Assembly: GCA_009927665.1 (NCBI GenBank)
Contig: RFMM01000109.1
Span: forward strand, 1-41,659
Length of the DNA stretch: 41,659 bases
Source: Actinomycetota bacterium
Lineage (GTDB): Bacteria; Actinomycetota; Acidimicrobiia; Acidimicrobiales; Ilumatobacteraceae
Reading direction: 5' to 3'
The translations under genes were made by a program, and so were the position numbers. Shown here in pieces: positions 15,139 through 33,706 of the stretch (its first letter is position 1; each line of letters begins with the position of its first letter). The notes under the pieces were generated by a model. That model was given only the letters and a program-made list of their open reading frames with translations, was not told where the DNA came from and ran no database searches.

Positions 15139-15915
15139 CTAGGTAGCCGATACGGTCTTGCGAATCTCGATACAGGCGGCGTCTGCGCCGTTGAGCACGA
15201 ATGATTGGTCTGACCGCACGAGCACGAAGTTGAGCTCGAAGTTGCGATAACTCTCCACGTCTGAGGACTTACCGACGAAGATTCCGACTGACTTTCTTGC
15301 AATTTTCACGCCACGAGCGACGGCGCTGATCGCAGCCTGCACTGTCACGTCGGATACGTCTGTCTTGCCGAGGGAGATACACAAGTCGACGGGCCCAATA
15401 AAGACACCATCGATGCCGGCAGTGCCGGCAATGCCTTCGGAATGTTCGACGGCTTCGGCATCCTCAATTTGGGCCACTACGACCACTGATGACGCCGTCG
15501 CATCGAGGTGCGCACGAATATCGCGGCGTGTGTAGTCGGCTGCTCGAGTGGAACCCGCAAAGCCTCGTCCGCCCGACCCGAAGTGCGAGATGCGCGCCAC
15601 ATGCTGTGCTTCTTGCGGCGTTCTCACATGAGGAACGACGACACCCGCCGCACCCTGATCGAGCGCCTGCTGGATACTGACGGGGTCGGAGTGAGTCACA
15701 CGTACGAGAGCTGGCAAGTTCCCCTCCCTCGCCGCGAGCAGGCAGAGGTCGAGGTCTCGACGAGAGAACGGCGCATGCTCTGCGTCAAGAACAACGAAAT
15801 CGATCGCAGATCGTGCCAACACCTCAACAATTGCGGGGTCCGGCGTCTTTACGAAGGTGCCAATTATGAAGTCGCCTGAGCGAAATCGTGTGGCGAAATT
15901 AGCGATAGTTCTCAT
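15139..15915 (-). CDS. HpcH/HpaI-family aldolase
   Basis: GDFIIGTFVKTPDPAIVEVLARSAIDFVVLDAEHAPFSRRDL..., ALDQGAAGVVVPHVRTPQEA, VVVAQIEDAEAVE, GTAGIDGVFIGPVDLCISLG. Confidence 0.92.
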   Translation of the reverse strand: MRTIANFATRFRSGDFIIGTFVKTPDPAIVEVLARSAIDFVVLDAEHAPFSRRDLDLCLLAAREGNLPALVRVTHSDPVSIQQALDQGAAGVVVPHVRTPQEAQHVARISHFGSGGRGFAGSTRAADYTRRDIRAHLDATASSVVVVAQIEDAEAVEHSEGIAGTAGIDGVFIGPVDLCISLGKTDVSDVTVQAAISAVARGVKIARKSVGIFVGKSSDVESYRNFELNFVLVRSDQSFVLNGADAACIEIRKTVSAT

Positions 15916-16927
15916 CGCGCTCCAATTGGCTGCACATCTCGCTCGCTCTCGCGATCACGTCGACACCGAGTTGTTGCCAAACGTGCAGCATGTCGACCAG
16001 AACCCAATTCTCGCGTATTAGTCCGTGCTCTACTCGCCAAAAGTCGAGACTGCGCATGGTGATGTGCTGACCCGTTGGATTGATGCCCAACCAGCCATCA
16101 CCAGAAACCGACATTTTCATTCCTGGCCATGCAGTGAACGCCACATATGGGCCTTGCCCGAAGTAGTAGCCGCCGCCGACGTTTCCACTCCTGTCTGGCA
16201 GTGCCCGCAAGAATGGGATCTGGTGACCGTTACGGAAGCCCTCAATGCCTCTGCACGTTCCGATGGCTGCTGGGCCGTACCAAGACATGCGGGGGTGCCA
16301 GAAGTCTTCGAGCCTCATCACGCTGGCGGGTTCCTGCGGGTGACGACCCATCGCCGTCAACATCTCTGCGACTATTCGAAGCGACTCAGCTGAAGCTTCA
16401 GACGTCGCGGCTGGTCGGTGCATTCCATCCTGAGGTATCGGCGCGGGAACGTTCCAGGCTCGTCGCAACGCCGGCGCCATCGGCCATGCTCCAGCTTGCA
16501 TGAGAAGTTCAGGGATGTCCCAGACCGCCTGGACCTCTTGAACACCGTCTGCACCAAGCCTGAAGAATTCGTGAAAGCGCATCGTCACCTGTTGGCCCGT
16601 AGGTCGAATGCCGAGGTAGGGCTTGCGGAATGCCCCCGTGTAGTAGCCGCACACTCCGACCATCTCGTCACCAGCGGCTGCTCGACCCTGCACTTTGATG
16701 GTCATCCGCCGTTCCAAATCGGGAATCGCAGTTGCGAGTGGCCGGTAGACCTCGTCGACGAGTTGATCGACATCGGACAGCGTCTCGTATGGATGCGTGA
16801 AATGGAGTTTGGCTCCGCTCACAAGAGCCTCTTTAAAAAGGTGCGTTGCGTCTTCAATCTCAAAGTCACGGAAAGCTTCAAACAGGGCATCAAGACGTGC
16901 CCGGGAGGCCTCAAATGCTCTCACCAT
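15899..16927 (-). CDS. Tandem SnoaL-like (NTF2 fold) protein, two domains
   Basis: 342 aa; first half ...MVGVCGYYTGAFRKPYLGIRPTGQQVTMRFHEFFRL..., second half ...GTCRGIEGFRNGHQIPFLRALPDR...GDGWLGINPTGQHITMRSLDFWRVEHGLIRENWVLVDMLHVWQQLGVDV. Confidence 0.85.
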   Translation of the reverse strand: MVRAFEASRARLDALFEAFRDFEIEDATHLFKEALVSGAKLHFTHPYETLSDVDQLVDEVYRPLATAIPDLERRMTIKVQGRAAAGDEMVGVCGYYTGAFRKPYLGIRPTGQQVTMRFHEFFRLGADGVQEVQAVWDIPELLMQAGAWPMAPALRRAWNVPAPIPQDGMHRPAATSEASAESLRIVAEMLTAMGRHPQEPASVMRLEDFWHPRMSWYGPAAIGTCRGIEGFRNGHQIPFLRALPDRSGNVGGGYYFGQGPYVAFTAWPGMKMSVSGDGWLGINPTGQHITMRSLDFWRVEHGLIRENWVLVDMLHVWQQLGVDVIARASEMCSQLERDENYR

Positions 16928-18063
16928 AAAATCTCAGAGGCCAGCTCGGCGCCTACTTTCATTGCTGCAAACTTTGCGAAGACAATTTCCGTGTCAATTC
17001 CTGGATAGCCGGCAAATGTCGAGAATCCACAATCAGTTCCGGCGATGACTCGTTCACGCCCGACCACGCGCGCAACGTTGATGATTCGCTGAGCGATGAG
17101 CCTCGGATGTTCGACGAAATTCGTCGTTGTATCGAGTACACCCGGGATGAGCACCTTGTCGTCAGGAATCTGAATCGACGAGAGGTCTTCCCACTCGTGG
17201 GCGTGGCGCGGGTTTGCAGTCTCAAACAACAAGCCCTGCGGTTTGGCGCGCAGTGCTATCGGCAGCACAGTCGTCAATGGCGCATCGTGGGTATGAGGGC
17301 CCTCGTAGTTTCCCCAACACACGTGCATACGCACACGATCGCTCGGAATGTTGCGCAGAGCATGGTTGAGAGCCTCGACGTTTTCGTTGACACGGGCAAG
17401 ATAATCGGCTTCTGACAGCTTCTTAAACATCATGTGCCGTCCGAGACCGAGATCAGGCGAATCGATTTGGAGAATGAAGCCCGCTGCGACGATCGCTTCA
17501 TATTCGACTCGCATCGCCTCGGCGACGGCCCCGAGGTACGAGGCGTGGTCAGGGTAATAGGCGTTCGGCTGAAACATCGCGATGACTCCCGGCGATGCGG
17601 AATTAAGAAATGCTTCCATCGGCTGGTGTTTGTCGACTGCACGCCTGAACGTGGCGCATTCTTGTGCAACTGGCTGGCGGTCGACATGGCGAATCTCGGC
17701 GACGCATTGGGGTCGCTTGTAAGTCGGAGTCCCGCCTGATTTCGCCTGCTGCTGCAGGAAGGTTGGGAAGTCCTCTAGGTCGGCGGGTGGAGTGCGCGGA
17801 CTGTCGCCATCGAAGCCTGAGATGCGGTACTTGATGTACGTCGCGTACGAGATCTTGTCCATTTCGCCATCGCTCACTACATCGATACCCGAGTCAACCT
17901 GCCGCTTCACGACGTCGCTGACTGCGCGATCAATGATTGCGATGTGTTGCGTGACATCGAGAGTTTCGCCGTGCTCGCGCCTAAAGATCAAATCTGTAAC
18001 GTCTGCCGGTCGCGGGAGACTGCCGACATGCGTCGTCAGGATTCGATCACTGCTCACCTTCAT
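16921..18063 (-). CDS. Cobalamin-independent methionine synthase-like / epoxyalkane:CoM transferase-like zinc enzyme (COG0620)
   Basis: ILTTHVGSLPRP..., SGIDVVSDGEM, MHVCWGNYEGPHTHDAPL (H-x-C), VIAGTDCGFSTFAG (distal Cys); short single-domain form. Confidence 0.85.
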   Translation of the reverse strand: MKVSSDRILTTHVGSLPRPADVTDLIFRREHGETLDVTQHIAIIDRAVSDVVKRQVDSGIDVVSDGEMDKISYATYIKYRISGFDGDSPRTPPADLEDFPTFLQQQAKSGGTPTYKRPQCVAEIRHVDRQPVAQECATFRRAVDKHQPMEAFLNSASPGVIAMFQPNAYYPDHASYLGAVAEAMRVEYEAIVAAGFILQIDSPDLGLGRHMMFKKLSEADYLARVNENVEALNHALRNIPSDRVRMHVCWGNYEGPHTHDAPLTTVLPIALRAKPQGLLFETANPRHAHEWEDLSSIQIPDDKVLIPGVLDTTTNFVEHPRLIAQRIINVARVVGRERVIAGTDCGFSTFAGYPGIDTEIVFAKFAAMKVGAELASEILW

Positions 18064-19229
18064 AGAAGTGATTCCTCAGTTTCAGCATCGAACACGTGCA
18101 GCCGGCTGGGCTCCATGGCTAGGCGAACCGTCTCGCCCTCCTGCGCACGCGAAGCCGGATCAACGCACGCGATCAATCGTGTCTCATTAGCGAGAGTCAC
18201 TTCCTCAGACTCGGAGGAAGTCTTGCCCCCAAACCTCTCGGCGTCGACTGCAATGTGAAGCACGGTTTCCGTGCCCAATGACTCTCGCAAACGAACAACC
18301 CCTTGAATCACTTCCCCATTCGGAACCGGAGTGACAATGGGGTCCTTCAAGTAGTGCGGACGTATACCAACGACCACCCGCCGACCCGCGTGGGAACGAA
18401 GACGCCCAGATTGGTTCCCGGGCTGGGTTATGAGCTTGATGGACTGCGAGCCGATGCGCAGCGAGTTTTCTTCCCCACTCTGTTCAAGTTGGCCATAGAC
18501 GAGGTTCATCGACGGTGAACCAATGAACCGTGCGACGAAAAGATTCTTAGGTCTTCCGAATACCTCTTCGGGAGAGCCCATCTGCTGTAGACGGCCATCC
18601 CTCAGAACTGCAACGCGATCACCCATCGTCATGGCTTCGGTCTGGTCGTGGGTGACGTAGACAGTCGTGGTTCTAAATTCTCGCTGTAGCGCGCGAATAT
18701 CGCCACGCATCTGAACTCGCAATTGCGCATCAAGATTTGATAGCGGCTCATCCATTAATGAGAGTTGCGGTTGGCGAATGAGTGCGCGACCCATGGCTAC
18801 TCGCTGACGCTGACCACCTGAGAGCTGCGCAGGTTTTTTCTCGAGCTGAGTCATTAACTGGAGAAGCTCAGCGACTCGGTGCACTTCCGCAACTCGCTTG
18901 TCTTTCGGCATCTTGCGCAGTTTCAACGGAAACTCGATGTTCTGAAAAACTGTCATCTGCGGGTACAACGCATAGTTCTGGAACACCATTGACATATCGC
19001 GATCGCGCGGTGCAACGCCGGTCAGTGGCTTCCCAGCCAACCTAACTTCCCCACTTGAAGCCGTCTCTAGACCTGCGACAAGGCGCAACGCCGTCGACTT
19101 GCCGCAACCCGATGGTCCGACAAGCGCGAGGAACTCGCCCGAGGCGAGGGAAAGACTCAGCGAGTCGAGCGCGACGAATCCGTCTCCAAAGCTCTTGGTA
19201 AGTCGATCGAGTTCAAGCGTTGCCATCAT
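18060..19229 (-). CDS. ABC transporter ATP-binding protein, MalK/UgpC type with TOBE domain
   Basis: VGPSGCGKSTALRLVAGLE, DRDMSMVFQNYALYPQMTVFQNI, LSGGQRQRVAMGRALIRQPQLSLMDEPLSNLDAQLR, YVTHDQTEAMTMGDRV. Confidence 0.96.
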   Translation of the reverse strand: MMATLELDRLTKSFGDGFVALDSLSLSLASGEFLALVGPSGCGKSTALRLVAGLETASSGEVRLAGKPLTGVAPRDRDMSMVFQNYALYPQMTVFQNIEFPLKLRKMPKDKRVAEVHRVAELLQLMTQLEKKPAQLSGGQRQRVAMGRALIRQPQLSLMDEPLSNLDAQLRVQMRGDIRALQREFRTTTVYVTHDQTEAMTMGDRVAVLRDGRLQQMGSPEEVFGRPKNLFVARFIGSPSMNLVYGQLEQSGEENSLRIGSQSIKLITQPGNQSGRLRSHAGRRVVVGIRPHYLKDPIVTPVPNGEVIQGVVRLRESLGTETVLHIAVDAERFGGKTSSESEEVTLANETRLIACVDPASRAQEGETVRLAMEPSRLHVFDAETEESLL

Positions 19230-19762
19230 CGGCTCCCTTCGGGCCGAGGAGCGACTCGTTCACCCAGGTCGTAAGCCTCCCAGCCCTCACCTGAGAAGAC
19301 GTCCACGCCAAGTTGTTTCATCACCCATGCAAAGTCGACACTGACGTAGTTGTCAACGATTCTGCCGTCGACGACCTTCCAAAAATCCATGTAACGAATC
19401 TCGACTCGCCTCCCAGTCGCGGCGATGCCCATGAATTCTCCGGAATGAACCGCTTCTTGGCGTCCAAACGCTGCCGCCCACTCACCCATGAAGATGCGAG
19501 CCTCGTCGATGCATACCTTGTCGCTGAACGCGGCCTGAAACGGTCGCTGCCAGTTGTCCTGAAACTCCCGTAACCCATGCTTTGTGCCGCAACCGAAATT
19601 GCCCATCCAGCGAAAGCCTTCCGAGAAGAACTCTCCGATGTCGTCAATTCGGTGGTCGTTTAGACCGTCAACCATCTCCTCGATCACCCGCCGCGTTTCG
19701 TCTGTTTTAGCTATGTCCGTGTTCTTCGTGAGGGCGGCCTGCTCGGGACGTGAACCCTTCAT
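19226..19762 (-). CDS. SnoaL-like (NTF2 fold) protein, single domain
   Basis: FRWMGNFGCGTKHGLREFQDNWQRPFQAAFSDKV...GIAATGRRVEIRYMDFWKVVDGRIVDNYVSVDFAWVMKQLGVDVF; start at 19762 overlaps the upstream gene by 4 nt. Confidence 0.85.
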   Translation of the reverse strand: MKGSRPEQAALTKNTDIAKTDETRRVIEEMVDGLNDHRIDDIGEFFSEGFRWMGNFGCGTKHGLREFQDNWQRPFQAAFSDKVCIDEARIFMGEWAAAFGRQEAVHSGEFMGIAATGRRVEIRYMDFWKVVDGRIVDNYVSVDFAWVMKQLGVDVFSGEGWEAYDLGERVAPRPEGSR

Positions 19763-20790
19763 GTGGTGTGACCTTTCGTAGTCGTGGAATATCCGTGAAT
19801 ATGCGCCGGCAGTGCACCGATCGAAGTCAAGAAGTCGACGATGTCGATGAACACCCAATTCGTCGTGATCTTGTAGTTCGTCACCTCGTAGAAATCAAAG
19901 ACTCGAAGCGTCACCGGCTTGTTGCTCGCGGGAAGTCCGAGCCATCCGTTGCCCGTGTGAGTCGCCTTGACACTCGGCCAGCCACCAGTCACCGCCCAAG
20001 CCCCCTGTGCAAATTTCACGAAATGCCCCGTGCTCCCTGAGTTGTCGCCCGGTGGTAGCGCACCACCCCCAACACGATCAGGAAAGGCTCGACGGAAAGG
20101 AAGCTGATGGTGATCGACGAATCCTTGACTCGCTTCAGTGACGCCAATGCCGCCTGGACCGGCCCAGATGAAGTCAGATTCCCAATGACGAAGGTGCGCT
20201 GCAGTCAGCATTTGCTCGCGAGTAGACGCGTCATCGTGTAGGTCAGACTGCATTGCTCGAACCACTTCGAGCGTCTCGGCAGACTTGCCAGCGCTCGGGT
20301 CAACCTTCGGAAGCGGCCATCGCTCAGCGACACCGAGGGGTGCAGCGGTGAGCAGCTGACCAGTTTGGACAGCAAGATCAAGTAGATCAACCATTACCGT
20401 GCAGCGATCGAGCCTCTCGTCGACCACGTCAGCCACTAGCCCGATCCGCAATTCAACCGTCGAGTGGCTGGGTCGCAGTCCGCACAACGGGGCCGCGAAG
20501 TTTCCTTTGAGTGTGCCCCATGAAGCAGACTGCCATCTGCCTTCGATCACTTCTGAGTCAAGTCGCATTGCAGTAGTGAACACAGAGTCGGAGATGGCGC
20601 TCGTGATTGGTCCGGCGATTCCGCCTTGCCATGCACGCACACCGCGCGAGGCCTCAAACGGCGCAGAGACGCGGAACAAAGTGGATGCGTCGGCCAGCGA
20701 AACACATTCTCCGTTCGAAGCAAACAACGATGAGTCGTCGAAGTCGGCTCTGTCGCTCTTTCGGTTGGTGGTGAAACTGACCCGCGTCAT
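19759..20790 (-). CDS. Tandem SnoaL-like protein with divergent N-terminal half
   Basis: C-terminal half: FIWAGPGGIGVTEASQGFVDHHQLPFRRAFPDR...TGNGWLGLPASNKPVTLRVFDFYEVTNYKITTNWVFIDIVDFL; similar in pattern to the 15899-16927 product. Confidence 0.8.
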   Translation of the reverse strand: MTRVSFTTNRKSDRADFDDSSLFASNGECVSLADASTLFRVSAPFEASRGVRAWQGGIAGPITSAISDSVFTTAMRLDSEVIEGRWQSASWGTLKGNFAAPLCGLRPSHSTVELRIGLVADVVDERLDRCTVMVDLLDLAVQTGQLLTAAPLGVAERWPLPKVDPSAGKSAETLEVVRAMQSDLHDDASTREQMLTAAHLRHWESDFIWAGPGGIGVTEASQGFVDHHQLPFRRAFPDRVGGGALPPGDNSGSTGHFVKFAQGAWAVTGGWPSVKATHTGNGWLGLPASNKPVTLRVFDFYEVTNYKITTNWVFIDIVDFLTSIGALPAHIHGYSTTTKGHTT

Positions 20791-21791
20791 CCTTTCACCG
20801 CCCCAGAGCCGAGCCCTTTGACTAGATGTTTTTGAAACATGATGATGACGATGACGATCGGAAGCGTGATTGATATTGCGGCAGCCGCTGCTTCAGTGAT
20901 GCCTTTTGAACTCTCCCCTCCTGCGAGTGCGACGATGCCGACAGGAAGCGTCCAATTCGTTGGCGCCAGCACCCGCACAAATAAGAACTCGTTGTAGGCC
21001 AGAAGCAAGGTGAAGAGGCTTGTTGCAATGATTCCGGGCTTCATCGTCGGAATCACGACTCGCACAAATGCTTGCAATCTCGTGGCGCCGTCCATCATCG
21101 CCGCTTCTTCGAGTTCTTTGGGAACTTCGAGGAAGAATGTTCGCAGCATCCAGATGGTGAATGGTTGATTCACTGCGACGAGCGCGAGCACAATGATGGC
21201 ACGCGAGTCGAGTAAGCCTAAAGATTTTGCGATGATGAAAAAAGGCAGTACGAAGGCAAAACGTGGAAGCGCGCGGAACGCCAACGCAGAGATGAGAATG
21301 ACCGCGCCAGACTTTCCGGAGTACCTGGCCAAGCCGTATCCGCCCAGAAGACCGATGCTGATCGACACACAGATTGTGGCGGCGGTGACAATAATGCTGT
21401 TGATAAAGAATTCGAACTGATCGCTCGTCTCCCAGCGCATATCCACGTAGACGAGTGTGGCGACGATGGCAGCAATCGCGAGCGTGTTGAGATACGCAGG
21501 TCGCCTCATGCGTCGCGCGACCATGAGCAACCCACCAACAATCAATGTCGACAGTACGACGACCATCAGCACCTGCCACATGTTGGTGGATTGGTCGTCG
21601 AACCAATACGCCCTGTAAGCGGCTGCCGTCGTGTCATAACCCCAGAGCACCGGTTCGCGCGCCGCCACATCACGTGTGAACTTGATGGACGTCTGAAACG
21701 TCCATAACAGTGGCAGAACGCTCCACACCACCACAATCGCGAGAGCGCTATGCAGCGTCACCCGGCCGGCAACCATCTTCACCCGCGTCAC
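20787..21791 (-). CDS. ABC sugar-type permease, MalG/UgpE-like
   Basis: Membrane protein with the EAA-loop region ELEEAAMMDGATRLQAFVRVVIPTMKPGIIATSLFTLLLAYNEFLF. Confidence 0.93.
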   Translation of the reverse strand: MTRVKMVAGRVTLHSALAIVVVWSVLPLLWTFQTSIKFTRDVAAREPVLWGYDTTAAAYRAYWFDDQSTNMWQVLMVVVLSTLIVGGLLMVARRMRRPAYLNTLAIAAIVATLVYVDMRWETSDQFEFFINSIIVTAATICVSISIGLLGGYGLARYSGKSGAVILISALAFRALPRFAFVLPFFIIAKSLGLLDSRAIIVLALVAVNQPFTIWMLRTFFLEVPKELEEAAMMDGATRLQAFVRVVIPTMKPGIIATSLFTLLLAYNEFLFVRVLAPTNWTLPVGIVALAGGESSKGITEAAAAAISITLPIVIVIIMFQKHLVKGLGSGAVKG

Positions 21792-22654
21792 GTGCGATCT
21801 GCAATCTGTTCTTTGTAGCTGCGCACCAAGAATGGGATGAGCGCAGCAAAGATTCCCACAATCGTGAGAATTGCGATTGCGTGCCCTTTGCCCAGACGGC
21901 CGATTTTGGCGTCAAGGGCCTCTACGGAGTTGTACACCGACAGGGTGTGGCTGTTGTCGAATCGATTGCCGGCAAAGACAAACACACTGTCAAACACTCG
22001 GTAGCTGTCCATAATCGAGATGATTGCGACGAAGAACAGCACACTCTTCAAATGCGGCAACGTCACGTGCAAAAACGTGTCGAAGAACCTGGCGCCATCC
22101 ATAGATGCTGCCTCGATCCGCTCCTGCGGGAGCGTCTGCAGACCGGCGAATATTGCGACGAACGCAAAAGGGGTGACGTGCCACACGGCGTGGAGCATTA
22201 TTAGAAAACGAACATTTGAAGCATCAACGACAAAAAGGTTCCCAGTGACGAGTTCAATCAACCAACTGACTAGACCACCGCGTGAGAAGAGGTTTCGAAA
22301 CAATAAGGTGCCGACGACCGGGGTCACGATGAACGGCAGCAGCATTGCTGCCAGGTAAACCGATCGAAATCGGCCCACTCGGTCAAGTAGCAAGGCGAAG
22401 ATCAGGCCCAAGACCATTTCGAGCGGTACTGTCACGCCAACAAAGAAGAGGGTGAATCTCGTTGCCGACCAGAAGTTTGGGTCAGACAAGACTTCGCGGT
22501 AGTTCTTTAGCCCAACGAATGGCGCGGAACTGAGGTCGCGCAAGAACAAATCGGTCGTACTGAGCCAAACTGTGGTGACAAGCGGGATCACCATGAGGAA
22601 CGTCATCACCGACACACTTGGCAAGACGAACCCAGTAAAAGCCCGCCGATTCAT
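21788..22654 (-). CDS. ABC sugar-type permease, MalF/UgpA-like
   Basis: Membrane protein with LPQERIEAASMDGARFFDTFLHVTLPHLKSVLFFVAIISIMDSYRVFD (EAA loop). Confidence 0.93.
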   Translation of the reverse strand: MNRRAFTGFVLPSVSVMTFLMVIPLVTTVWLSTTDLFLRDLSSAPFVGLKNYREVLSDPNFWSATRFTLFFVGVTVPLEMVLGLIFALLLDRVGRFRSVYLAAMLLPFIVTPVVGTLLFRNLFSRGGLVSWLIELVTGNLFVVDASNVRFLIMLHAVWHVTPFAFVAIFAGLQTLPQERIEAASMDGARFFDTFLHVTLPHLKSVLFFVAIISIMDSYRVFDSVFVFAGNRFDNSHTLSVYNSVEALDAKIGRLGKGHAIAILTIVGIFAALIPFLVRSYKEQIADRT

Positions 22655-22683
22655 CGCGCCCCCTCACTCACAGATTACGAATT

Positions 22684-22720
22684 GCGGCGGGGCGGGAGCC
22701 CGAAGACCCCACCCCGCCGC
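22684..22720. other. GC-rich intercistronic hairpin between solute-binding protein and permease genes
   Basis: GCGGCGGGG ... CCCCGCCGC perfect 9-bp arms, with an additional GGG/CCC inner pairing. Confidence 0.75.
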
Positions 22721-22744
22721 TCTCATTCGGCTTGGCTGAAACTG

Positions 22745-24106
22745 TCAGCTCAGCAGATTCTGAGCCTTGGCTTCTTTCAAGTACGCGGCTTCTGCCTCAG
22801 CGATTACATCGGCCGGCTTGGCGCCGTCAAGAATCTTTACCAGAGCCTTACCGATCTCTGCGCGGTAAATGCCGGCAGCCGGGTGAGTCTGGTCAGCGCC
22901 ACGACCTTGCGAGGTCGAGACGTTGAGGGCTTCGCCGTTACGTGGACCCTCAGGGTTCGAGACGCCACTTCGCGTCACACCGCCGAACTTCGCGGCCGCG
23001 GTCTGCGACTCTTCGTCAGAAGCACCGAGCATCGCCAAGAAGACCTTCTCTGGGTCGACCGTTCCGTTTGCAGGAATGGCGTAGCCGTCGACATAGGCCG
23101 GCGCTCCAAGCACCGTGCCCGCAGTCAGTGCAGGCGCAAATTTAATCTTGCCTAACACTTCGGCGGTCGTTGCCTCGGCGTCATCCATTGACGCAGCACG
23201 TGATGCCCAGAGGTGACCGATCACGTACTCGCCGGTCTGGAATGCGTTCTGCACGTCATCGGTGCTGTAGGTACCAATGGTCTTACCACCGCACGTGTTG
23301 ACGATGTCGGCAAGTATCTGAGCGGCCTTGACTCCCTCAGCCGAGTTGAAGTTCGGCTGACCGGTCGTATTGTCAATTGGCTTCACACCAAGCGAGCCGA
23401 GCACGTTGTCGTACTCGATCTGCCACGCCCAGTCGGCCGACAACATCATCTGAAAGCCGGCGTAGCCACCATCGATAAGTGCGGGGCACATTGCGATGGC
23501 TTCTTCGTATGTCTTCGGCACTGACAACCCGAGCTTGCTGAGCACCTCTTCGTTGTAGAAGAGGTGCTGGGTGTTGGCCACCATCGGAATCGAGTAAATG
23601 TTGCCGTCAACACTGACGAGATCCCACATGCCTTGCGGGATGCTGTCGAGGTTGAATTGGTCTCGATACTTCTCAATCAAGTCGTTGAGGGGCAAGAGCA
23701 ATCCCTTATTGGCAAGTTCAACGATGAATTGGTTTGAGCCCTGGACCATTTCGAACGAAGGAGTGCCCGTCTCGAGGTCAAGGTTGATCTGGTTTTGAGC
23801 TTCCGCTGAGTCAAGGAACTGAATGTTGAAGGTGTAATTCGCCGCTTCACACTCTCGAAGTTCTGCCGCGTACTGCGTGATAATCGGGAATTCCCAACCC
23901 ATGAGGTCAATGTTGACGGCCTCATCGGCAACCGGAATCGCGCATTCTTCGGAAGCCAGAACGACCTCAGGCGTTGCTTCTTCGACTGGGGCCTCGGTGG
24001 CCTCCGTTGCCTCTTCGGTGCTGTCATCTGAGCCACAGGCTCCAACGAACATCACCGAGACAGCAACTGCGGCGAGCGTTCGCCGCATTGCGGATTGCTT
24101 TTTCAT
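22745..24106 (-). CDS. ABC transporter extracellular solute-binding lipoprotein (family 1-like)
   Basis: Lipoprotein signal MKKQSAMRRTLAAVAVSVMFVGACGSDDS; body IYSIPMVANTQHLFYNEEVLSKLGLSVPKTYEEAIAMCPAL...; SD-like AAGGGGG upstream. Confidence 0.93.
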   Translation of the reverse strand: MKKQSAMRRTLAAVAVSVMFVGACGSDDSTEEATEATEAPVEEATPEVVLASEECAIPVADEAVNIDLMGWEFPIITQYAAELRECEAANYTFNIQFLDSAEAQNQINLDLETGTPSFEMVQGSNQFIVELANKGLLLPLNDLIEKYRDQFNLDSIPQGMWDLVSVDGNIYSIPMVANTQHLFYNEEVLSKLGLSVPKTYEEAIAMCPALIDGGYAGFQMMLSADWAWQIEYDNVLGSLGVKPIDNTTGQPNFNSAEGVKAAQILADIVNTCGGKTIGTYSTDDVQNAFQTGEYVIGHLWASRAASMDDAEATTAEVLGKIKFAPALTAGTVLGAPAYVDGYAIPANGTVDPEKVFLAMLGASDEESQTAAAKFGGVTRSGVSNPEGPRNGEALNVSTSQGRGADQTHPAAGIYRAEIGKALVKILDGAKPADVIAEAEAAYLKEAKAQNLLS

Positions 24107-24171
24107 GTATTCCCCCTTGAAGTTGACGGATAAGTTTCTGCAACCGGGTGTGTGACCGAATGCATACCGAC

Positions 24172-24202
24172 GGAGCCTATGACTACGTAGTCACCATGTC
24201 AA
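24172..24202 (-). promoter_or_regulatory. Promoter TTGACA-17-TAGGCT with LacI-type operator filling the spacer
   Basis: On the minus strand: TTGACA TGGTGACTACGTAGTCA TAGGCT; contains the perfect 14-bp palindrome TGACTACGTAGTCA (24180-24193). Confidence 0.85.
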
Positions 24203-24360
24203 GCCCAGAATTTCGGGCTTAGGTGCCTCACTGGGTTCTCTCGACACCCAGGTTCTTGGTACATGCCCCACGCTCCTAGGGCGATATCTCTTACCCCGAG
24301 GGACAACGCCTCTGGCGTTAGCCCCAGGTTGCGACGACCAATAGCGATGGATTCGATGCG

Positions 24361-25479
24361 TCAGCCGAAGTGGCGTTCAACGAGTTCTCTCGGGGCCACA
24401 CAACCGCTGGCATCCAGCACATAACCAAGGTCGCGAGCAGCCTTGACAAGAGTCGGAGACCATTCGATCGGGCATCGACCGTCGCCATTCGACGCAATGA
24501 CGAACTCAGCCGGTCCCCCTTTGGGATTCCGCACGTCGCGCCACTCACCAGCGGGCAGAGATACCACCGATCCGGCCGGAACCTCACAGCTCACCACAGC
24601 TGCGTCGCCGAGTTCAACAACAAGATCAGCATCCATCGCCAATAACGCCACCGGCGATGCCACTCTGTGCCGTCCGAGCGATGATCCCGCGTCGAGTCGC
24701 AGCCAGTTGACCGAAAATCCGTGTGGGTAGGTGATTGCGATGTGATGGCGCCGGTGCTGATTGAATCCGACACCAATCACCGGGGCGACACATGAGTGAT
24801 GCTGCGGAATCACCGAGGCGAGGAGTGCGTGCTCCTGCCACCGGCGAGCGTCGTTGCGCACCACACGAGCTTCAATCTCCTCAGGCGAATAGCGATCTAT
24901 TTTCGCGAGTGCCTCGGGCGAGACTGGCTTCAGTGTCAATGCACCGCGAACAACGTCTTCAACTTTGGTGACTTTTTCCGTCTCGTCAAGCACCAAGCCC
25001 GACTCCCGAGCCAGCTCCAAGACGCGAGGAGACCAGAGAATTCCACCGGGATCGTCACCTCCGAGAAACGTATACAAGAATCCGTCAGATGTTCCGACGT
25101 TCTCGAAGCTCCGGAATACCCACGTCGGCACTGCGAAGATGTCGCCAGGCCCGATTGTGAGCGCCAGCTGATCATCGAGACCGATTGCCATCTTCCACAT
25201 ACCACTTCGACAGACAAAAACCTCTGCCGTGTAGTGCAGATGCGCATTGTTGATCATCCCTGGTTGCAGGCCGGCTGCTCCTACGCAGAACCCGTGCGGT
25301 TCAACGATGTTGGTCTTTGCGTCTTCGTTCTGGGTGACCCCTGCACCGATGAAACTGAAACTCGTCTTTCCCGCCGAGCGCGGCAAATGTACGTCAACGA
25401 ACGCAGAAGTGTCAGCGACAAAGTCGGCAGGCGTCACGACGCGTCGACGAAGTTCAGATTCCAACGACATGGAACCCAT
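24361..25479 (-). CDS. Bicupin protein (two cupin domains)
   Basis: INNAHLHYTAEVFVCRSGMWKMAIGLDDQLALTIGPGDIFAVPTWVFRSFENVG (cupin motifs 1 and 2); second degenerate cupin GSSLGRHRVASPVALLAMDADLVVELGDAAV.... Confidence 0.8.
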   Translation of the reverse strand: MGSMSLESELRRRVVTPADFVADTSAFVDVHLPRSAGKTSFSFIGAGVTQNEDAKTNIVEPHGFCVGAAGLQPGMINNAHLHYTAEVFVCRSGMWKMAIGLDDQLALTIGPGDIFAVPTWVFRSFENVGTSDGFLYTFLGGDDPGGILWSPRVLELARESGLVLDETEKVTKVEDVVRGALTLKPVSPEALAKIDRYSPEEIEARVVRNDARRWQEHALLASVIPQHHSCVAPVIGVGFNQHRRHHIAITYPHGFSVNWLRLDAGSSLGRHRVASPVALLAMDADLVVELGDAAVVSCEVPAGSVVSLPAGEWRDVRNPKGGPAEFVIASNGDGRCPIEWSPTLVKAARDLGYVLDASGCVAPRELVERHFG

Positions 25480-26768
25480 CAAGAACCCGCTCCGACCCCC
25501 GAGTATCGACGCACACGTATGTCGGCCTGTTCTTTGTGTCCCCAGAAGCGTTCGATAGCGCACAACCTAGAGCAGTACTCGCCGACCATCGCCGAGGACT
25601 GCGGATTCGTGACTCGCTGGTACGTCACCGTCTTGATGAACTTTCCGACCCAGAGGCCGCCGGTATAGCGCGCAGCCGATTGCGTTGGCAGGGTGTGATT
25701 GGTGCCGATGACTTTGTCGCCGTATGAGACGTTCGTCATTGGCCCAAGGAACAGCGCCCCATAGTTCTGCATGTTCTCAAGGAAGTAGTCGTCATTGCTC
25801 GTCATCACTTGGACATGCTCAAAGGCGAGATCATCAGCGACCTCGAGCATCTCGGCATGATCTTTGCAGAGAATGACCTGACCGTAGTCAGCCCACGACT
25901 TTGATGCGATATCGGCAGTCGGCAAGGTCTTCAGTTGCAACTCGACTTGACGAATGGTCTCGTCGGCGAGTCGACGGGAGTTCGTCACGAGGATCGCCGG
26001 CGAGGTTGGTCCGTGTTCCGCTTGACCGAGCAGGTCGACTGCACAGATTTCGCCATCGACCGTTTCATCGGCGACCACCAGCGTTTCGGTCGGACCAGCC
26101 ATCAGGTCGATTCCTACACGTCCGTAAAGCTGCCGTTTGGCTTCGGCAACTAGCGCGTTACCGGGGCCAACAATCATGTCAACCCGGTCAACGAATTCAG
26201 TACCAATCGCCAGCGACGCAACGGCTTGCACACCGCCAAGCACGTAAATTTCATCTGCTCCTGCCAAAGCCATGGCGGTGATGGTTTCGGCTGGCAGTTC
26301 ACCATTGATTGGCGGGGTGCAGGCTGCCACCCGCTTCACGCCAGCGACCTTTGCCGTGAGAACGCTCATGTGCGCGGAGGCGACCATCGGGTAGCGCCCG
26401 CCTGGCACGTATGCGCCGACCGAGCCAACTGGTATCAGTTTGTGACCCAATGTCACGCCAGGAAGGGTTTCCACTTCCACCGGATTAAGGCTGGCCAATT
26501 GGGCTTTTGCGAAGTTACGAATCTGCTTCTGAGCGAACTCGATGTCGTGGATCGTCTGCTTGCTCACGCCCGCGATGACCTTTTCGACCTGCGCGTCAGA
26601 GAGACGGAACTGTGCTGGTTCCCATTTGTCAAACTCGGCTGACATCCGTCGCACCGCATTTTCGCCGTCGACTTCCACCTCTCTGAGTAGGTTGCTCACT
26701 CGTGAAGTGAGCTCGGCATCCGCGCCGTGGGCAGCCTTTCGTGTCGCCTTCTTGATGTACTCAGCCAT
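25479..26768 (-). CDS. Histidinol dehydrogenase-family enzyme, resembling sulfopropanediol (DHPS) 3-dehydrogenase HpsN
   Basis: [43 protein letters not shown]..., [86 protein letters not shown]. No his operon context. Confidence 0.85.
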
Positions 26769-27810
26769 GACTAGTTTCTCCTCTCGTGGTATTTGCGATA
26801 CGTAGCTCTCCCTCGATTGTCACAATTTGATCAACCGCGCTGAGAGAGAGCAGTTGGAGCACGCTCGCGACCATCTGCTCGATCGGCTGCACGAGCGTGG
26901 TCAGACCATAGCCCTCCCAAGCCGATTGCGGGACACCGTCGAAACCCGTCACGCGCACGTCACCTGGCACACTGACACCGTGCCTGCGCAGGCCGTCGAT
27001 TACACCGAAGGCAATCTCATCGGCCGCAACGACCAGTGCATCAGGAATTCTGCCAACTTCGGCGAGGTTTGCTCCGATCTTGTAGCCGGCGTCGTAGGTA
27101 AACGAGCCAGCTTCGATGTAGGGAAGGGAGATCTCTCTCGCTCCGAATTGTTCGACGGCCCCTCGATATCGAAGCTGATCAGTAGACGCCGAGGAAACTC
27201 CACCCACGAATGCGGCACTCTTTACTCCAAGTTCAATCAGGTGACGCGCCAGAGCAGCTGCACCGCCCTGGTTGTCTACGGTGACGAGCGGTGCAATGCC
27301 GGCTGCTGCAGGCTGGTTAAACGCCACGACCGCATGGTTAGGCTGCGTCAACCTCGAGATTTGTCCGACACCGATCGTCGACGAAGCAAGCACCAGCCCG
27401 TCGAGCCGGTACCTCGAAATAGATTGAATCGCTCCTTCGACCGCCTGGACGTCGCGAAATGTGGTCACGAGCAACTGCCGCGAGCCCTCGCCCACTTGTC
27501 GTGCGAATGCAGAGATGACACTCTGCCAGTATTCGCCTTGAGCAGGTACCACTACTCCGACAAGCCCCGACCGCTGGTTCCGCATGCCACCGGCGATTGC
27601 ACTCGGCACATAACCCAGCTCTCTAGCGGCGCGGCTCACTCGGTTGCGCGTGGCCTCGGCGACGAGAGCGGGACGGGCGAAGACTCGTGCAACCGTTGAT
27701 TGAGAAACTCCAGCACGTTTCGCAACGTCGAAGGAAGTCACGTCGCCTCGGGCGTTGTGATGAACGCCCGGATGGCGGACTCTCGAAGTCGAACGATGTG
27801 AAGAGCCCAC
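26761..27810 (-). CDS. LacI-family transcriptional regulator
   Basis: [66 protein letters not shown]. The TTG at 27819 overlaps the predicted -10; GTG at 27810 or a later codon is more plausible. Confidence 0.93.
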
Positions 27811-27818
27811 GCCGCTCA

Positions 27819-27848
27819 ATCTTATGAATACGTAGTCACGATTTCCAA
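27819..27848 (-). promoter_or_regulatory. Promoter of lacI-type gene with second copy of the operator
   Basis: Minus strand: TTGGAA-18-TAAGAT with GTGACTACGTATTCA in the spacer; TATGA(A)TACGTAGTCAC(G)AT is 18/20 identical to the site at 24178-24197. Confidence 0.8.
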
Positions 27849-27855
27849 AGCCTGC

Positions 27856-28809
27856 TCAGGTAGAAAGAATCTGGCGCCAAACTGCAACCTCGTCGAGCAA
27901 CAAGTACAGCCGGCCAATGTTGGGTCCCACGAAATCAGCGTGCCAGATCGACATGACCCGCACCTCCTCACCTGAAGGCTGACCGAAACCACCCGCACCT
28001 TCGTGTACGAACGTGGTGGTACAACGAACCGCTGCGCGCACTCCACGCGACGGGTCGGCGTGACCGATCGCGTGGTCTACCTGCGTCTCAATGCATCGCA
28101 GCGGGGCCAAGAGAACCCGTATGCTGCTTACGCCCGAGTCGCGCCAATGTGCAACCTCGCCGCCCGGCAACTCAAAGTGGCAGGCACGATCGATGTCTTC
28201 TCGGGCCTCGTCAAACCGACCGGTGAGGAGTCGCTCGGCGAGACGCGCCAACGTGCGCCCTGCGACATGGTCGTTGCCACGCGAGCGATAGACCGGCGCC
28301 GCATGGGCGAACATCACATCTGTCATGCGGGTCGATCCACCAGCCTCTGCAACAATCTTGCGGGCGACTTCTTCGGGCGTGCTTCCCATTTGGCGCACGA
28401 TCGCCCCAAAGTCACGCACGAGCCACTCATCGAAAATGATGTTGTCGCGCACTGCACAGTCTGCAATCACTCGATAGTGAAGTGAGCGACCTGTCGGGTC
28501 ACCGAAGTAGCCGCGACCGAGATGTGTGGCGGTCGAAAAAATACGATGCGAAGACAGCCATTCATCCGAGCTGCCTGTGTGAATGACGTCTTCCCCAATG
28601 AGCTGACGGTCGGGAAACTCGACAAGCGTGGCTTTCGTGGAATCGATGACCGATTGAGAACCTGTGGTCATCCCACTCGGCGACTTGACAGGCACCGCAT
28701 CTGCGTAATAGGTACGAATCGCTTCAATGTCTCGCTCTTCCCAAATCTGGTGCGTGAGGCGCAGGATGAAGTCGGCGTACGGGTCACCCGTTGTAAACAC
28801 CTCGCTCAC
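27856..28809 (-). CDS. Tandem SnoaL-like protein (GTG start)
   Basis: LTHQIWEERDIEAIRTYYADAVPVKSPSGMTTGSQSVIDSTKATLVEFPDRQ...TGRSLHYRVIADCAVRDNIIFDEWLVRDFGAIVRQMG plus a second NTF2-like half. Confidence 0.75.
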   Translation of the reverse strand: MSEVFTTGDPYADFILRLTHQIWEERDIEAIRTYYADAVPVKSPSGMTTGSQSVIDSTKATLVEFPDRQLIGEDVIHTGSSDEWLSSHRIFSTATHLGRGYFGDPTGRSLHYRVIADCAVRDNIIFDEWLVRDFGAIVRQMGSTPEEVARKIVAEAGGSTRMTDVMFAHAAPVYRSRGNDHVAGRTLARLAERLLTGRFDEAREDIDRACHFELPGGEVAHWRDSGVSSIRVLLAPLRCIETQVDHAIGHADPSRGVRAAVRCTTTFVHEGAGGFGQPSGEEVRVMSIWHADFVGPNIGRLYLLLDEVAVWRQILST

Positions 28810-28813
28810 AGAT

Positions 28814-29077
28814 TTAGCCCTGCACGATGGCGACGCCCGTTTGGGCTGAGGCGTTTTCGAGCGACCCGAGGTCAGTTATGTCGGTGATGCCGACCTCCCG
28901 CATTCGCTCGGCGGCCTGCGCTGAGCGGTTGCCCGAACGGCAGTAGACGATGTACGACGCAGTGGTGTCGAGCTTGGCGATTTCGGCGTCAAACGACGGA
29001 TTCTTAAAGTCGATGAGCACCGCACCATCAAGATAACCGGCAGCGAACTCTTCGGGGGTGCGTACGTCGATAATCAT
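28814..29077 (-). CDS. Rhodanese-like domain protein
   Basis: [24 protein letters not shown]...[29 protein letters not shown]; catalytic CRSGNRS loop. Confidence 0.93.
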
Positions 29078-29658
29078 CGGGCAACGCCGACGGGGCACGA
29101 CACGCCGGTGCCGCCCAGACCGCAGTAGCCGTTCGGGTTCTTGCCGAGATACTGCTGGTGGTAGTCCTCCGCGTAGAAGTAGTCGCGTAGCGGTGCAATC
29201 TCCGTAGTGATCTCGCCGTATCCGGCTTTAGTGAGTTCTGCCTGGAATGCGTCGCGTGACTTCTCTGCGGCCGTTCGTTGTGCATCGTTGGCGTAGTAGA
29301 TCGCGCTGCGGTATTGCGTGCCGACATCGTTGCCTTGGCGCATCCCCTGGGTCGGGTCGTGATTCTCCCAGAACACGCGCAGCATCGCCTCGAGCGACGT
29401 CTGCGTGCGGTCGAAGACTGCCATCAGCACTTCGGTGTGGCCCGTCAGGCCGCTACACACTTCTTCATACGACGGGTTCGGAGTGAAGCCGCCCGCGTAG
29501 CCGACCGAGGTGGAATACACGCCGGGTGCCTGCCAGAACTTGCGCTCTGCACCCCAGAAGCAACCCATGCCGACGACGAGCGTCTCGCAGTGCTCTGGCC
29601 ACGGGCCAACGAGCGGCGCACCGTTCACGAAGTGTGATTGATTCGCTTGACCCATCAT
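29074..29658 (-). CDS. msrA: Peptide-methionine (S)-S-oxide reductase MsrA
   Basis: [64 protein letters not shown] catalytic motif. Confidence 0.96.
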
Positions 29659-31085
29659 GATCGTCTGTTCTCGGTGACTACATCATCACGATCGAGCAAC
29701 TTTCCATCAACTGGTACCCGCACCACGGAATCCAACCCTCCTCCTGGCGCCTGTTTTAACCCCACCGCAAAGGATGCCGCGCGAGACAACTGGGCCACGA
29801 TTGCCAGCCCCAAACCGGCGCTCTCCGAGGACGGCTCAGTTTGTGCTCGCCAAAATCGCTCAAAAGCCATCCTGCGCTGGGTCTCGTTCAATCCCGGTCC
29901 CTCATCTCGCACGATGACTTCTACTTCGTCCATACGACGAGTCGCAATTATTGACACGGTCGAGCGCGGTGGAGCGTGATTCAGAGCGTTATCTAGGTAA
30001 TTTGCGACAATCTCGTGCAACGCGAACCTGCTCGCGTCGACACGCAAGCCTCCATTGGTTTCGGCGACAACACTCACTTGAGACTCACCGGCAAGTGCGC
30101 TCCACTCCTCCACAATTTCACGACAGAGTATTCCTACATCGAAATTTTCCGTCACGAGAACTTGACCCTCGGAACGCGCCAACTGAAGCATTCGTTCAGT
30201 AAGCATCGAGAGTCTGTCAGTCTCTTTCAATGCGGCCTCGAGATTACTCCCCGCTGCGGCCGTGTCCACGCGTAGATTTTGATGAGCTTGCTCAAGACGC
30301 AATCGGAGTGCAGTCAGCGGCGTTCGCAATTGGTGTGCAGCGTCACCCGCAAATCGCTTCTGTTGACTGAGCATTTGCGACACTCGATCTGACATTGAGT
30401 TGAATTGTCGCGCCAAGGCACGAAGTTCCTTGGGTCCGTCAGGCTTCACCACCGCATTTCTGCCCTGCGCCAAGTCTTCAGCAGCATCCTGTAGCCGCCG
30501 CAGTGGTGCCGAGACGACTCCGGCAAGCGCAACGCCAGCAATGATGGCGATCAGAACGGCGACTCCAGCGGCAAGTACGAGTTGTCGAACTTGTGAATTC
30601 ACTTCACGATCTATCACTGTTTGTGGCCTGGAAAGACGAACAACTCCCGCAACAGAATCTCTGAAAAATATCGGAATTGCTGCATATACCAGAGTGTCCG
30701 AAACCGTTACCGATTGTCGGCCTCCGAGAGCGAAATTTCCCAAAAGTGCTGACGCGATTTCTGGACGATTTTTGAAGTCCTCACCGACACGATTGGCCGA
30801 GACACTTGACGCGATCAATATGCCGTTCTTGTCAGTTACAACGACGTCAATTGCACTGTTGGCAGAGAATTCGTCGACGAGTGAGACCGCTTCACTTGCG
30901 CCGAGGTTTCCATTCACATCCACTAGTTCACGCGCTTGCCCCGCAAGGACATATGCGTCGCGCTCAAGTCTTGTGATCTGACGCTCACGTTCCACTCGCG
31001 CCACATGCGCGATAAACGGGACATCTCGCACAATCACCACGAGCGCCACTATTCCAACAATGACCAGAATGAAATTGCGTTTCAT
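29655..31085 (-). CDS. Membrane sensor histidine kinase (HAMP)
   Basis: N-terminal TM, periplasmic sensor, HAMP, H-box [22 protein letters not shown]-box [12 protein letters not shown]-box DEGPGLNE / [12 protein letters not shown]. Confidence 0.95.
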
Positions 31086-31738
31086 CTGGGCTCGGTAAAT
31101 CGAAATCCAATTCCGCGCACTGCCTCAATCCAACGCGGATCTCCGAGCTTCTTGCGAATCGTCGCGATATGCACGTCTAACGTTTTGGTCGAACCGAACC
31201 AGTTTGAATCCCATACGGATTCCATGATTTCCTGACGGCGATGGACTCGTCCGGGCTCTCTCGCCAATAACTCAAGCAAGTCAAACTCCTTTGCGGTCAG
31301 GGGAATCTCGGTGTTCCGCAACAATGCGCGACGCGCGACCGGATCAACTACGAGTCCACCGACGACGACCGTGTCACTCTCCGGCTGGCCAACGGAACGG
31401 CGCGAAACAGCGCGAATGCGTGCAGTGAGTTCACGCAACGAGAATGGTTTCGCGAGATAGTCATCGGCTCCGGATTCGAGCCCGAGCACTCGATCAATCT
31501 CCTCGTTCCGTGCAGTCAGCATGATGATCGGGACATTTGACTTCTTGCGCACACTTCTACATACATCGAGACCGTCAATGTCTGGAAGGCCAATATCAAG
31601 GATCATCAATTCATAATTCATCGCATCAATCGCCGCCTTACCTGTTGACACGTGCTGGACAGTGTGCCCGACTGCGCTCAATCCCTCCCGCAATGACTCC
31701 GCGATTGCAACGTCATCTTCAACTAGCAGCACTCGCAC
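31082..31738 (-). CDS. OmpR-family response regulator (GTG start)
   Basis: MRVLLVEDDVAIAESLREGL...LMILDIGLPDIDGLDVCRSVRKKSNVPIIMLTARNEEIDRVLGLESGADDYLAKPFSLREL; C-terminal winged helix. Confidence 0.97.
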   Translation of the reverse strand: MRVLLVEDDVAIAESLREGLSAVGHTVQHVSTGKAAIDAMNYELMILDIGLPDIDGLDVCRSVRKKSNVPIIMLTARNEEIDRVLGLESGADDYLAKPFSLRELTARIRAVSRRSVGQPESDTVVVGGLVVDPVARRALLRNTEIPLTAKEFDLLELLAREPGRVHRRQEIMESVWDSNWFGSTKTLDVHIATIRKKLGDPRWIEAVRGIGFRFTEPR

Positions 31739-31861
31739 TCTTACAGTCTCGCCGAAAACCGACTCCCCAACGGGCTAGGTGACCCTCTTCACCGCAGAAC
31801 TTACCGAAACTTGGATGTTGATTGGATTTCCTTTGTAGTAGCCCGCTCTACGTTCGAAGTC

Positions 31862-32437
31862 ATGAAAACTCGGTCTGCAACCCTCATCTCGGTTTTCGCC
31901 GTCGCCTCGGCAGCAGCTGTTGCTCTGGCTGTGAACACGAACCTCTTCGCGAGGACTACCGCCCTGGCCGAAACGCAATCGACTATTCCAGAAGTCAATG
32001 CAATAGAAGTTCTCGATCCATCAGGCGAGACGAACACCGTTACTTCCAATACCGAATTCAGTGCTGCAATTAGCTCACCATCAAACGGGACTCAGACGTC
32101 TTACGATCTTCCCGGGGTCGGGAGCGTAACTCTTACTAGAAAACTTGACGAACTCACCATCGACTCGACGTCGATTGAAGACGGATACAACGCAGAAGTT
32201 CAGATCGCCAAAGGAACGCTGGTAAAAGTTGAGTTCAGAGGCGGCGAGAATCACTACGAGTTCAGAGCAATGGTCGTAGCCGGCGAGGTAGTCACCGACG
32301 TCTCAGTGCACGGCTTCCCGCAACCAGGAGGTCGCGTATTTCCAGGCCACCATGACCGTGATTCTGACGACGATGGCTCACGTGGGATGAATTGCGACCG
32401 AGATCATGAGGAGGAAGATCATGAATCCGACGACTGA
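31862..32437 (+). CDS. Secreted/anchored protein with His/Asp/Glu-rich C-terminal tail, unknown function
   Basis: MKTRSATLISVFAVASAAAVALAVNTNLFA signal/anchor; tail PGHHDRDSDDDGSRGMNCDRDHEEEDHESDD. Start chosen at the internal ATG (31862), preceded by TACGTT. Confidence 0.7.
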   Translation: MKTRSATLISVFAVASAAAVALAVNTNLFARTTALAETQSTIPEVNAIEVLDPSGETNTVTSNTEFSAAISSPSNGTQTSYDLPGVGSVTLTRKLDELTIDSTSIEDGYNAEVQIAKGTLVKVEFRGGENHYEFRAMVVAGEVVTDVSVHGFPQPGGRVFPGHHDRDSDDDGSRGMNCDRDHEEEDHESDD

Positions 32438-32795
32438 ATCTCGACTCGCATCGTTACGCGCACGCACGCGCCGAGACAAACATCCGGCTCGTTCTGCGCG
32501 AATTCTGACTGCTGGGCTCTCGGTAGCTTCAGTGCTCGGAATAGCCTCGCTCTTGCGGCTCGGTACTGTCGCGACTGCTTCACAGTCGGGTTCGGACACG
32601 GCGAATCAGCCACATTCCGATTCGCCTGCTCGTCAGCCATCCCCGGTGATTTCTGGCCCGCCCGAGAACCTCACATCTTCGATTTCACCAATTTGGCCGG
32701 CGGTGCCCTCGAGTAAAGCTCGCACTAGCGGCAGCATCATCTTGGAAGTTCCGCAATCCGCAGCGCCTTCTGCAAGGACGAGCGGCTCGAAGTGA
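32421..32795 (+). CDS. Single-pass membrane protein with Ser/Pro/Thr-rich tail, unknown
   Basis: AGGAGG 6 nt upstream of ATG at 32421; TM segment ILTAGLSVASVLGIASLLRLGTVA; 4-nt overlap with the downstream apbE-like gene. Confidence 0.65.
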   Translation: MNPTTESRLASLRARTRRDKHPARSARILTAGLSVASVLGIASLLRLGTVATASQSGSDTANQPHSDSPARQPSPVISGPPENLTSSISPIWPAVPSSKARTSGSIILEVPQSAAPSARTSGSK

Positions 32796-33706
32796 CAACG
32801 ACAATCACTCGAAAATCATTTCCAGCGATGGGCGCAACAGTTTTCATCACTTTGGTAAGTGAACTCGGCGAGCGCAATGAGAGTGAGCTTCTACGGTCCG
32901 CTCAAAATCTCATCGAACGACTTGAAACTCTCTGGAGTAGGTTTCAGGAAACTAGCGAGATTTCCCAGCTCAATCGGGGCCGATCGACGGAAGACCTCAG
33001 TGAGGAAACTCGGATGCTTCTGATGCACGCCGAGATTGCCTCAATCGCAACTGATGGCATGTTTGATCATCGCGTTGGAAACGAAATGATCCGAGTTGGG
33101 TACGCGAGATCTCTCGTCAGTCATTGTTCGCCGATTGAGACAGACGCAATTAAACGCTCGGCGACAACATTCATCCCGCCGTCAACATCAATTGATGTTG
33201 GTGGAATTGGCAAGGGGTTTGCTGCTGACCTCACGGCGAAGTTTCTCCTCGAGTCCGGGGCCAATGGTGCGCTCGTCAGCATTGGCGGAGATCTGCGTTG
33301 TATTGGTTCACCTGACCAGGAGCAGGGTTGGACAATCGAGGTCGAACACCCATCCGGACACGGCGCCATAACTCATCTGACACTTGAAAACGGAGGTGTT
33401 GCAACGTCCAACCTTCTCGCACGTAGATGGAACGGAGCTTCTTTGCAGACAAGCCACCTCATTGACCCCAGAACTGGCTTCTCAATAGATCCCACAAGAG
33501 CTGAGATCGTCCAAGCAACAGTCGTCGCCGGGAGCGCCGCATGGGCCGAAGCCTTCGCCACTGCATGTCTCGTAGCCGAGGCTTCGGCCGCGATTGCCTT
33601 ACTCGATCGCAACGGAATTGCAGGCTTGCTTGTCAGGGCAGATGGATCATCTGTCCACAACTCCAACTGGAGCAGCTTTTCACCGTCTGCTAGCAGTCGT
33701 CGATGA
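32792..33706 (+). CDS. ApbE-family FAD:protein FMN transferase (GTG start)
   Basis: FPAMGATVFITLV..., SRFQETSEISQLNRG, STSIDVGGIGKGFAADLTAKFLLESGANGALVSIGGDLRCIG, SHLIDPRTGF. Confidence 0.94.
   Translation: MTTTITRKSFPAMGATVFITLVSELGERNESELLRSAQNLIERLETLWSRFQETSEISQLNRGRSTEDLSEETRMLLMHAEIASIATDGMFDHRVGNEMIRVGYARSLVSHCSPIETDAIKRSATTFIPPSTSIDVGGIGKGFAADLTAKFLLESGANGALVSIGGDLRCIGSPDQEQGWTIEVEHPSGHGAITHLTLENGGVATSNLLARRWNGASLQTSHLIDPRTGFSIDPTRAEIVQATVVAGSAAWAEAFATACLVAEASAAIALLDRNGIAGLLVRADGSSVHNSNWSSFSPSASSRR

Follow-up and report, generated by a model that had tools for sequence, protein, structure and literature searches.

In the lac operon of Escherichia coli, the operator lies at +11, the repressor bound to it blocks RNA polymerase, and the regulator gene is found next to the operon. 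Local, autoregulated repressors of sugar uptake are described for the LacI family more widely, and in the available text of one survey (PMC4052901) typical members recognize even palindromes with a central CG, placed 30-140 bp from a start codon, and control their own genes. The locus considered here lies in a window of 41,659 nucleotides (the whole stretch of DNA that was analysed) from a member of the Acidimicrobiia. It shares with the lac operon a symmetric operator at the core promoter, a predicted block to RNA polymerase and a regulator gene that adjoins the operon, but differs in the placement of the operator (within the -35/-10 spacer, not at +11), in the length of the regulator (326 rather than 360 amino acids) and in its predicted autoregulation. 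The likeness to the sugar-uptake regulons in the available text of the survey (PMC4052901) extends to the LacI helix-turn-helix (HTH) and periplasmic-binding-like domains of the regulator, the even palindrome with a central CG, the sites before both the transporter operon and the regulator gene, and the local extent of the regulon; the operator itself is different, with a TGNNTACGTANNCA core in place of the CcpA/GalR-like TGNAANCGNTTNCA. The regulatory design is ordinary, textbook LacI biology. The regulon and the pathway, however, appear to be undescribed, as literature searches on the cluster and on the operator sequence returned nothing pertinent and the available text of the survey (PMC4052901) does not name a cluster of HisD-like, SnoaL and MetE-like genes.

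The gene cluster and its two predicted operators

The genes of the cluster all lie on the minus strand, in the order SnoaL-like, lacI, HisD-like, cupin, then O1, the solute-binding protein (SBP), two permeases, two SnoaL-like, UgpC-type ATPase, MetE-like, SnoaL-like and HpcH-type. The features are as follows.

27856..28809, minus: SnoaL-like protein, upstream of lacI; another operator stands in front of it in some relatives
27819..27848, minus: lacI promoter, -35-like TTGGAA (27848-27843), 18-bp spacer, -10 TAAGAT (27824-27819) (sequence; relatives have TTGACA/TA---T there)
27825..27838, no strand: operator O2 (predicted autoregulatory), minus-strand sequence TGACTACGTATTCA, differing from O1 at one position (sequence and relatives)
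26761..27741, minus: lacI-type repressor, 326 aa, GTG start (PF00356, PF00532, PF13377; sole LacI HTH in the genome)
25479..26768, minus: HisD/HpsN-like zinc dehydrogenase, overlapping the end of lacI (PF00815; closest solved relatives are sulfopropanediol 3-dehydrogenases)
24361..25500, minus: cupin protein, start uncertain, final gene ahead of O1 (PF07883)
24174..24202, minus: promoter of the transporter operon, -35 TTGACA, 17-bp spacer, -10 TAGGCT (sequence; geometry kept in relatives)
24180..24193, no strand: operator O1 (predicted), perfect palindrome TGACTACGTAGTCA, filling the spacer (sequence, relatives, genome scan)
22745..24106, minus: ABC solute-binding protein (SBP), CUT1-type, first gene downstream of O1 (PF01547)
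21788..22654, minus: ABC permease 1 (PF00528)
20787..21791, minus: ABC permease 2 (PF00528)
19759..20790, minus: SnoaL-like (ester cyclase) protein (PF07366)
19226..19858, minus: SnoaL-like protein, ORF given with a TTG start, the actual start probably internal to it (PF07366, PF12680)
18060..19229, minus: UgpC/MalK-type ABC ATPase (PF00005, PF17912)
16921..18063, minus: MetE-like protein of the cobalamin-independent methionine synthase family (PF01717)
15899..16927, minus: SnoaL-like protein (tblastn similarity to the cluster's SnoaL-like proteins)
15139..15915, minus: HpcH/HpaI-type aldolase-like protein, closing the cluster (family assigned from the translation)

The cluster looks catabolic. 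Given the short gaps and overlaps between them, its genes may form two transcription units, with lacI-hisD-cupin read from O2 and the SBP gene onward read from O1. The sequence-only reading had proposed a consensus promoter whose 17-bp spacer holds a perfect 14-bp palindrome, about 75 bp before the SBP gene and about 2.6 kb from a lacI gene, and each of these statements holds. On the minus strand, TTGACA (24202-24197) is followed by the spacer TGGTGACTACGTAGTCA (24196-24180, 17 nt) and TAGGCT (24179-24174), with the palindrome at 24180-24193 inside the spacer; the SBP ATG at 24106 is 74 bp from the near edge of the palindrome and 67 bp from the end of the -10, and the end of the lacI gene is about 2.6 kb away. 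O1 is an even palindrome whose halves, TGACTAC and GTAGTCA, meet at a central CG, as described for LacI-family operators in the available text of the survey (PMC4052901). Its -10 fits TANNNT but matches TATAAT at just three of six positions, which is why a generic sigma-70 scan does not pick up the O1 promoter; the scan found no promoter excess either, and is therefore uninformative.

Perfect 14-bp palindromes number four in the window and are not rare by themselves, and palindrome rarity alone was accordingly dropped as evidence. The combination is more telling. TTGACA-N16-18-TANNNT is present twice in the window, with a palindrome inside the O1 copy only, and TGNNTACGTANNCA, for which base composition predicts 0.023 occurrences in the window, is observed twice, both times at promoter positions of the cluster. 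Across the whole assembly (1.77 Mb, about 91% complete) O1 and O2 are the only copies.

O2, absent from the earlier finding, emerged as the one further copy in a one-mismatch scan of the window and strengthens the LacI-operator reading. It occupies the same place within the lacI promoter as O1 does in its own, although the -35 there (TTGGAA) is weak, and it lies 84 bp before the lacI GTG (27741); both distances, 74 bp and 84 bp, fall within the 30-140 bp range given in the available text of the survey (PMC4052901). A degenerate operator-like sequence with two mismatches is also present at 29059-29072, between msrA and the first SnoaL gene, where several relatives have a good operator before the SnoaL gene.

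Proposed repression from the promoter spacer

The lacI product combines an HTH with a periplasmic-binding-protein-like domain (PF00356, 2.4e-14; PF13377, 2.1e-19; PF00532, 5.8e-15), and its solved relatives include CcpA, PurR and LacI. It contains the one LacI-type DNA-binding domain in the genome, at about 91% assembly completeness. The HTH begins at the GTG at 27741, and orthologues align from there too; a longer ORF from the in-frame TTG at 27819 is not credible because this codon overlaps the -10 and would not be transcribed.

Judged from sequence, the palindrome is almost certainly the docking site of this neighbouring LacI-type repressor, and we consider it highly probable that a local, autoregulated LacI-family repressor blocks RNA polymerase from the spacer until it is released by ligand. 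The operator overlaps the -35/-10 interval in the window, as it does at the promoter-linked sites of relatives. A repressor dimer on O1 would cover the DNA between the two hexamers (17-bp spacer) and keep sigma-A RNA polymerase off the promoter, so that the transporter operon (SBP, permeases, SnoaL proteins, ATPase, MetE-like and HpcH-like) would be off. Through O2 in the lacI promoter, the repressor would control itself together with the downstream hisD-like and cupin genes. Binding of the transported compound or a metabolite to the periplasmic-binding-protein-like domain would then release the repressor and turn both operons on. LacI, with 360 amino acids, has a tail that tetramerises; the 326-residue protein is too short for such a tail, making looping between O1 and O2 (3.6 kb) unlikely.

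The same operator could instead serve a LacI-family protein that is mainly a ligand-requiring co-repressor or an activator, in the manner of PurR-type members, which bind DNA with their ligand according to the available text of the survey (PMC4052901). We regard this as unlikely, since a site between the -35 and the -10 speaks against activation and since, in the same text, the majority of LacI regulators that govern uptake and catabolic operons are repressors released by their ligand; the present cluster is catabolic in appearance.

Conservation of the predicted operator with its regulator

Using the aligned LacI protein and its 53% relative as queries, we recovered 11 orthologous loci in other Acidimicrobiia genomes (two of which, L040 and L041, look identical), each with hisD and/or cupin-transporter genes in its neighbourhood. 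A search of related genomes for the motif, a check called for by the sequence-only reading, found at least one TGNNTACGTANNCA upstream of lacI at 11 of 11 orthologous loci and at none of 28 paralogous LacI loci, a few of which have TGNAAGCGCTTNCA-like palindromes in its place. Conservation of the DNA core is accompanied by that of the recognition helix, SQ[AS]TV[AGT]R.

These observations bear on the possibility that the palindrome belongs to a regulator of another family (GntR, CRP or TetR type) and that lacI is nearby incidentally. Its GTGA...TCA(C) half-sites do resemble other palindromic operators, but the motif tracks the LacI orthologue at every one of the 11 loci and across phyla, stands upstream of lacI as well, fits the 14-bp frame of LacI operators, TG-N4-CG-N4-CA, and has no other copies in the genome; we judge this explanation very improbable. 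The reading of the palindrome as a LacI operator is instead tied to this protein by orthologue conservation, by O2, by the single LacI HTH and by the grouping of the regulators from three phyla described below.

At each of the 11 loci the promoter-linked sites place the operator within a spacer of 17-18 bp, flanked by TTGA- and TA---T. The core positions in this tally are fixed by the search pattern, while the flanking -35 and -10 constitute independent evidence; the downstream hexamer TA---T is far from TATAAT. In 221.6 kb of loci, about 20 sites were found where base composition predicts about 0.1, and all of them precede lacI, the SnoaL gene upstream of it or, at the window's O1, the SBP gene. 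Among the Acidimicrobiia, an operator directly before the SBP gene is seen in the window only; relatives have their sites ahead of lacI or of the SnoaL gene, and transcription of their SBP genes appears to start from these. A scan of 396 genomes of the class for TTGA-N5,6-TGNNTACGTANNCA-TA gave eight matches, all at the lacI gene cluster, of which one is O1 and the other seven fall at the SnoaL-lacI-hisD junction. The site is thus linked exclusively to this LacI and its cluster. Although four perfect palindromes in the window and a generic promoter scan without excess would allow for a chance palindrome within chance promoter-like sequence, this can practically be dismissed given a joint pattern kept in eight class genomes, no match to the reversed control pattern in the 396 genomes and about 200 times more motif sites at orthologous loci than expected.

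A second operator lies 23 bp downstream at four orthologous loci. Tandem operators with centres 23 bp apart are seen at L042:4690-4726, L043, L046, L047 and L050-L052, the second of each pair overlying the stretch immediately past the -10.

The window's repressor departs from its orthologues in the hinge helix (27565-27610), which reads AGGMRNQ versus ARSLKSQ or a close variant at ten orthologous loci. A hinge leucine normally enters the minor groove at the central CpG step, and is family-typical rather than strictly defining. This leucine is not present in the window's repressor (AGGM for ARSL), so that its affinity could differ, though the operators stay consensus; methionine in its place is a conservative change.

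Beyond the class, the gene set with a LacI-type regulator is found on plasmids of Marinovum, Ruegeria, Paracoccus, Octadecabacter and Deinococcus, and tblastn recognized the same gene set on a plasmid of Ensifer that lacks annotation. The sites that precede the transporter or cupin genes are TGCATACGTATGCA in Deinococcus and Ruegeria, TGCATACGTATTCA in Ensifer, TGCAAACGTATGCA in Marinovum and Ruegeria, and TGCACACGTATGCA in Octadecabacter; the Paracoccus sites are weaker, with one or two mismatches. Set against 20 paralogues, the LacI proteins from Acidimicrobiia, Alphaproteobacteria and Deinococcus fall into a single group with 99/99 support. Taken with the shared cluster and sites, this grouping indicates that regulator, operator and pathway appear to have stayed together across phyla.

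The dehydrogenase, the pathway and the genomic island

The closest solved structures to the cluster dehydrogenase are those of the R-DHPS 3-dehydrogenase HpsN (PDB 8v35, E 2.7e-109). The zinc ligands and the catalytic Glu-His are alike in the two enzymes. In HpsN, His126 recognizes the sulfonate and sets DHPS dehydrogenases apart (PMC11382572), whereas this histidine, looked for after the GRYA motif, is replaced by Met in the window (GGRYPM) and in the other cluster HisD proteins read, which share GG[RK][YF]PM. The substrate therefore probably differs from DHPS, and DHPS catabolism, though suggested by the similarity to HpsN, was not adopted as the pathway since the diagnostic His126 is missing. 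A biosynthetic HisD identity was likewise set aside, as HpsN entries score far better and a second HisD-family gene is found elsewhere in the genome. The GG[RK][YF]PM motif also occurs in plasmid proteins of Rhizobium, Emticicia and Deinococcus annotated as histidinol dehydrogenases, an annotation that is probably wrong. The annotated surroundings of the closer HisD homologues, on the Rhizobium and Emticicia plasmids, are different clusters; in the Deinococcus clusters, a gene comparable to the HpcH/HpaI-type one is annotated as belonging to the aldolase/citrate lyase family. Matches of the SBP to the PDB are generic sugar binders only, and no ligand is therefore called. A transporter of CUT1 type would point to a compound resembling a sugar or polyol.

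The 14-kb cluster (15139-28809) sits between pheS and msrA in the source genome. In four congeners (G003, G005, G006, G007) pheS is directly beside msrA, and none of the congeners examined has the lacI of the cluster; the cluster is thus an accessory island that brings along its regulator and operators. Another congener, G004, carries a different catabolic island at this pheS-msrA junction (L077:2267-10067), whose translated ORFs include a sugar ABC system and molybdenum-hydroxylase (CoxL/CoxM-like) genes. The junction looks like an insertion hotspot. A second accessory block is found at 29655-34295 of the window, between msrA and a SpoU-type methyltransferase gene that are adjacent in G003, G005 and G007; its translated ORFs are histidine kinase, response regulator, small secreted-protein-like, ApbE-like and ferric-reductase-like.

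On balance, and with modest confidence, we favour the view that an undescribed LacI regulon, conserved among Acidimicrobiia, Alphaproteobacteria and Deinococcus, governs an entire pathway of uptake and catabolism built on a third HisD-type subfamily (GG[RK][YF]PM), neither histidinol nor DHPS dehydrogenase. The specificity of the operator motif makes it a tag for a catabolic gene set common to three phyla, including marine Roseobacters and streamlined Acidimicrobiia, and the motif together with its single repressor offers a ready reporter for finding the compound that is consumed. The locus also provides a clean example of an operator held in a 17-bp spacer across a large evolutionary distance.
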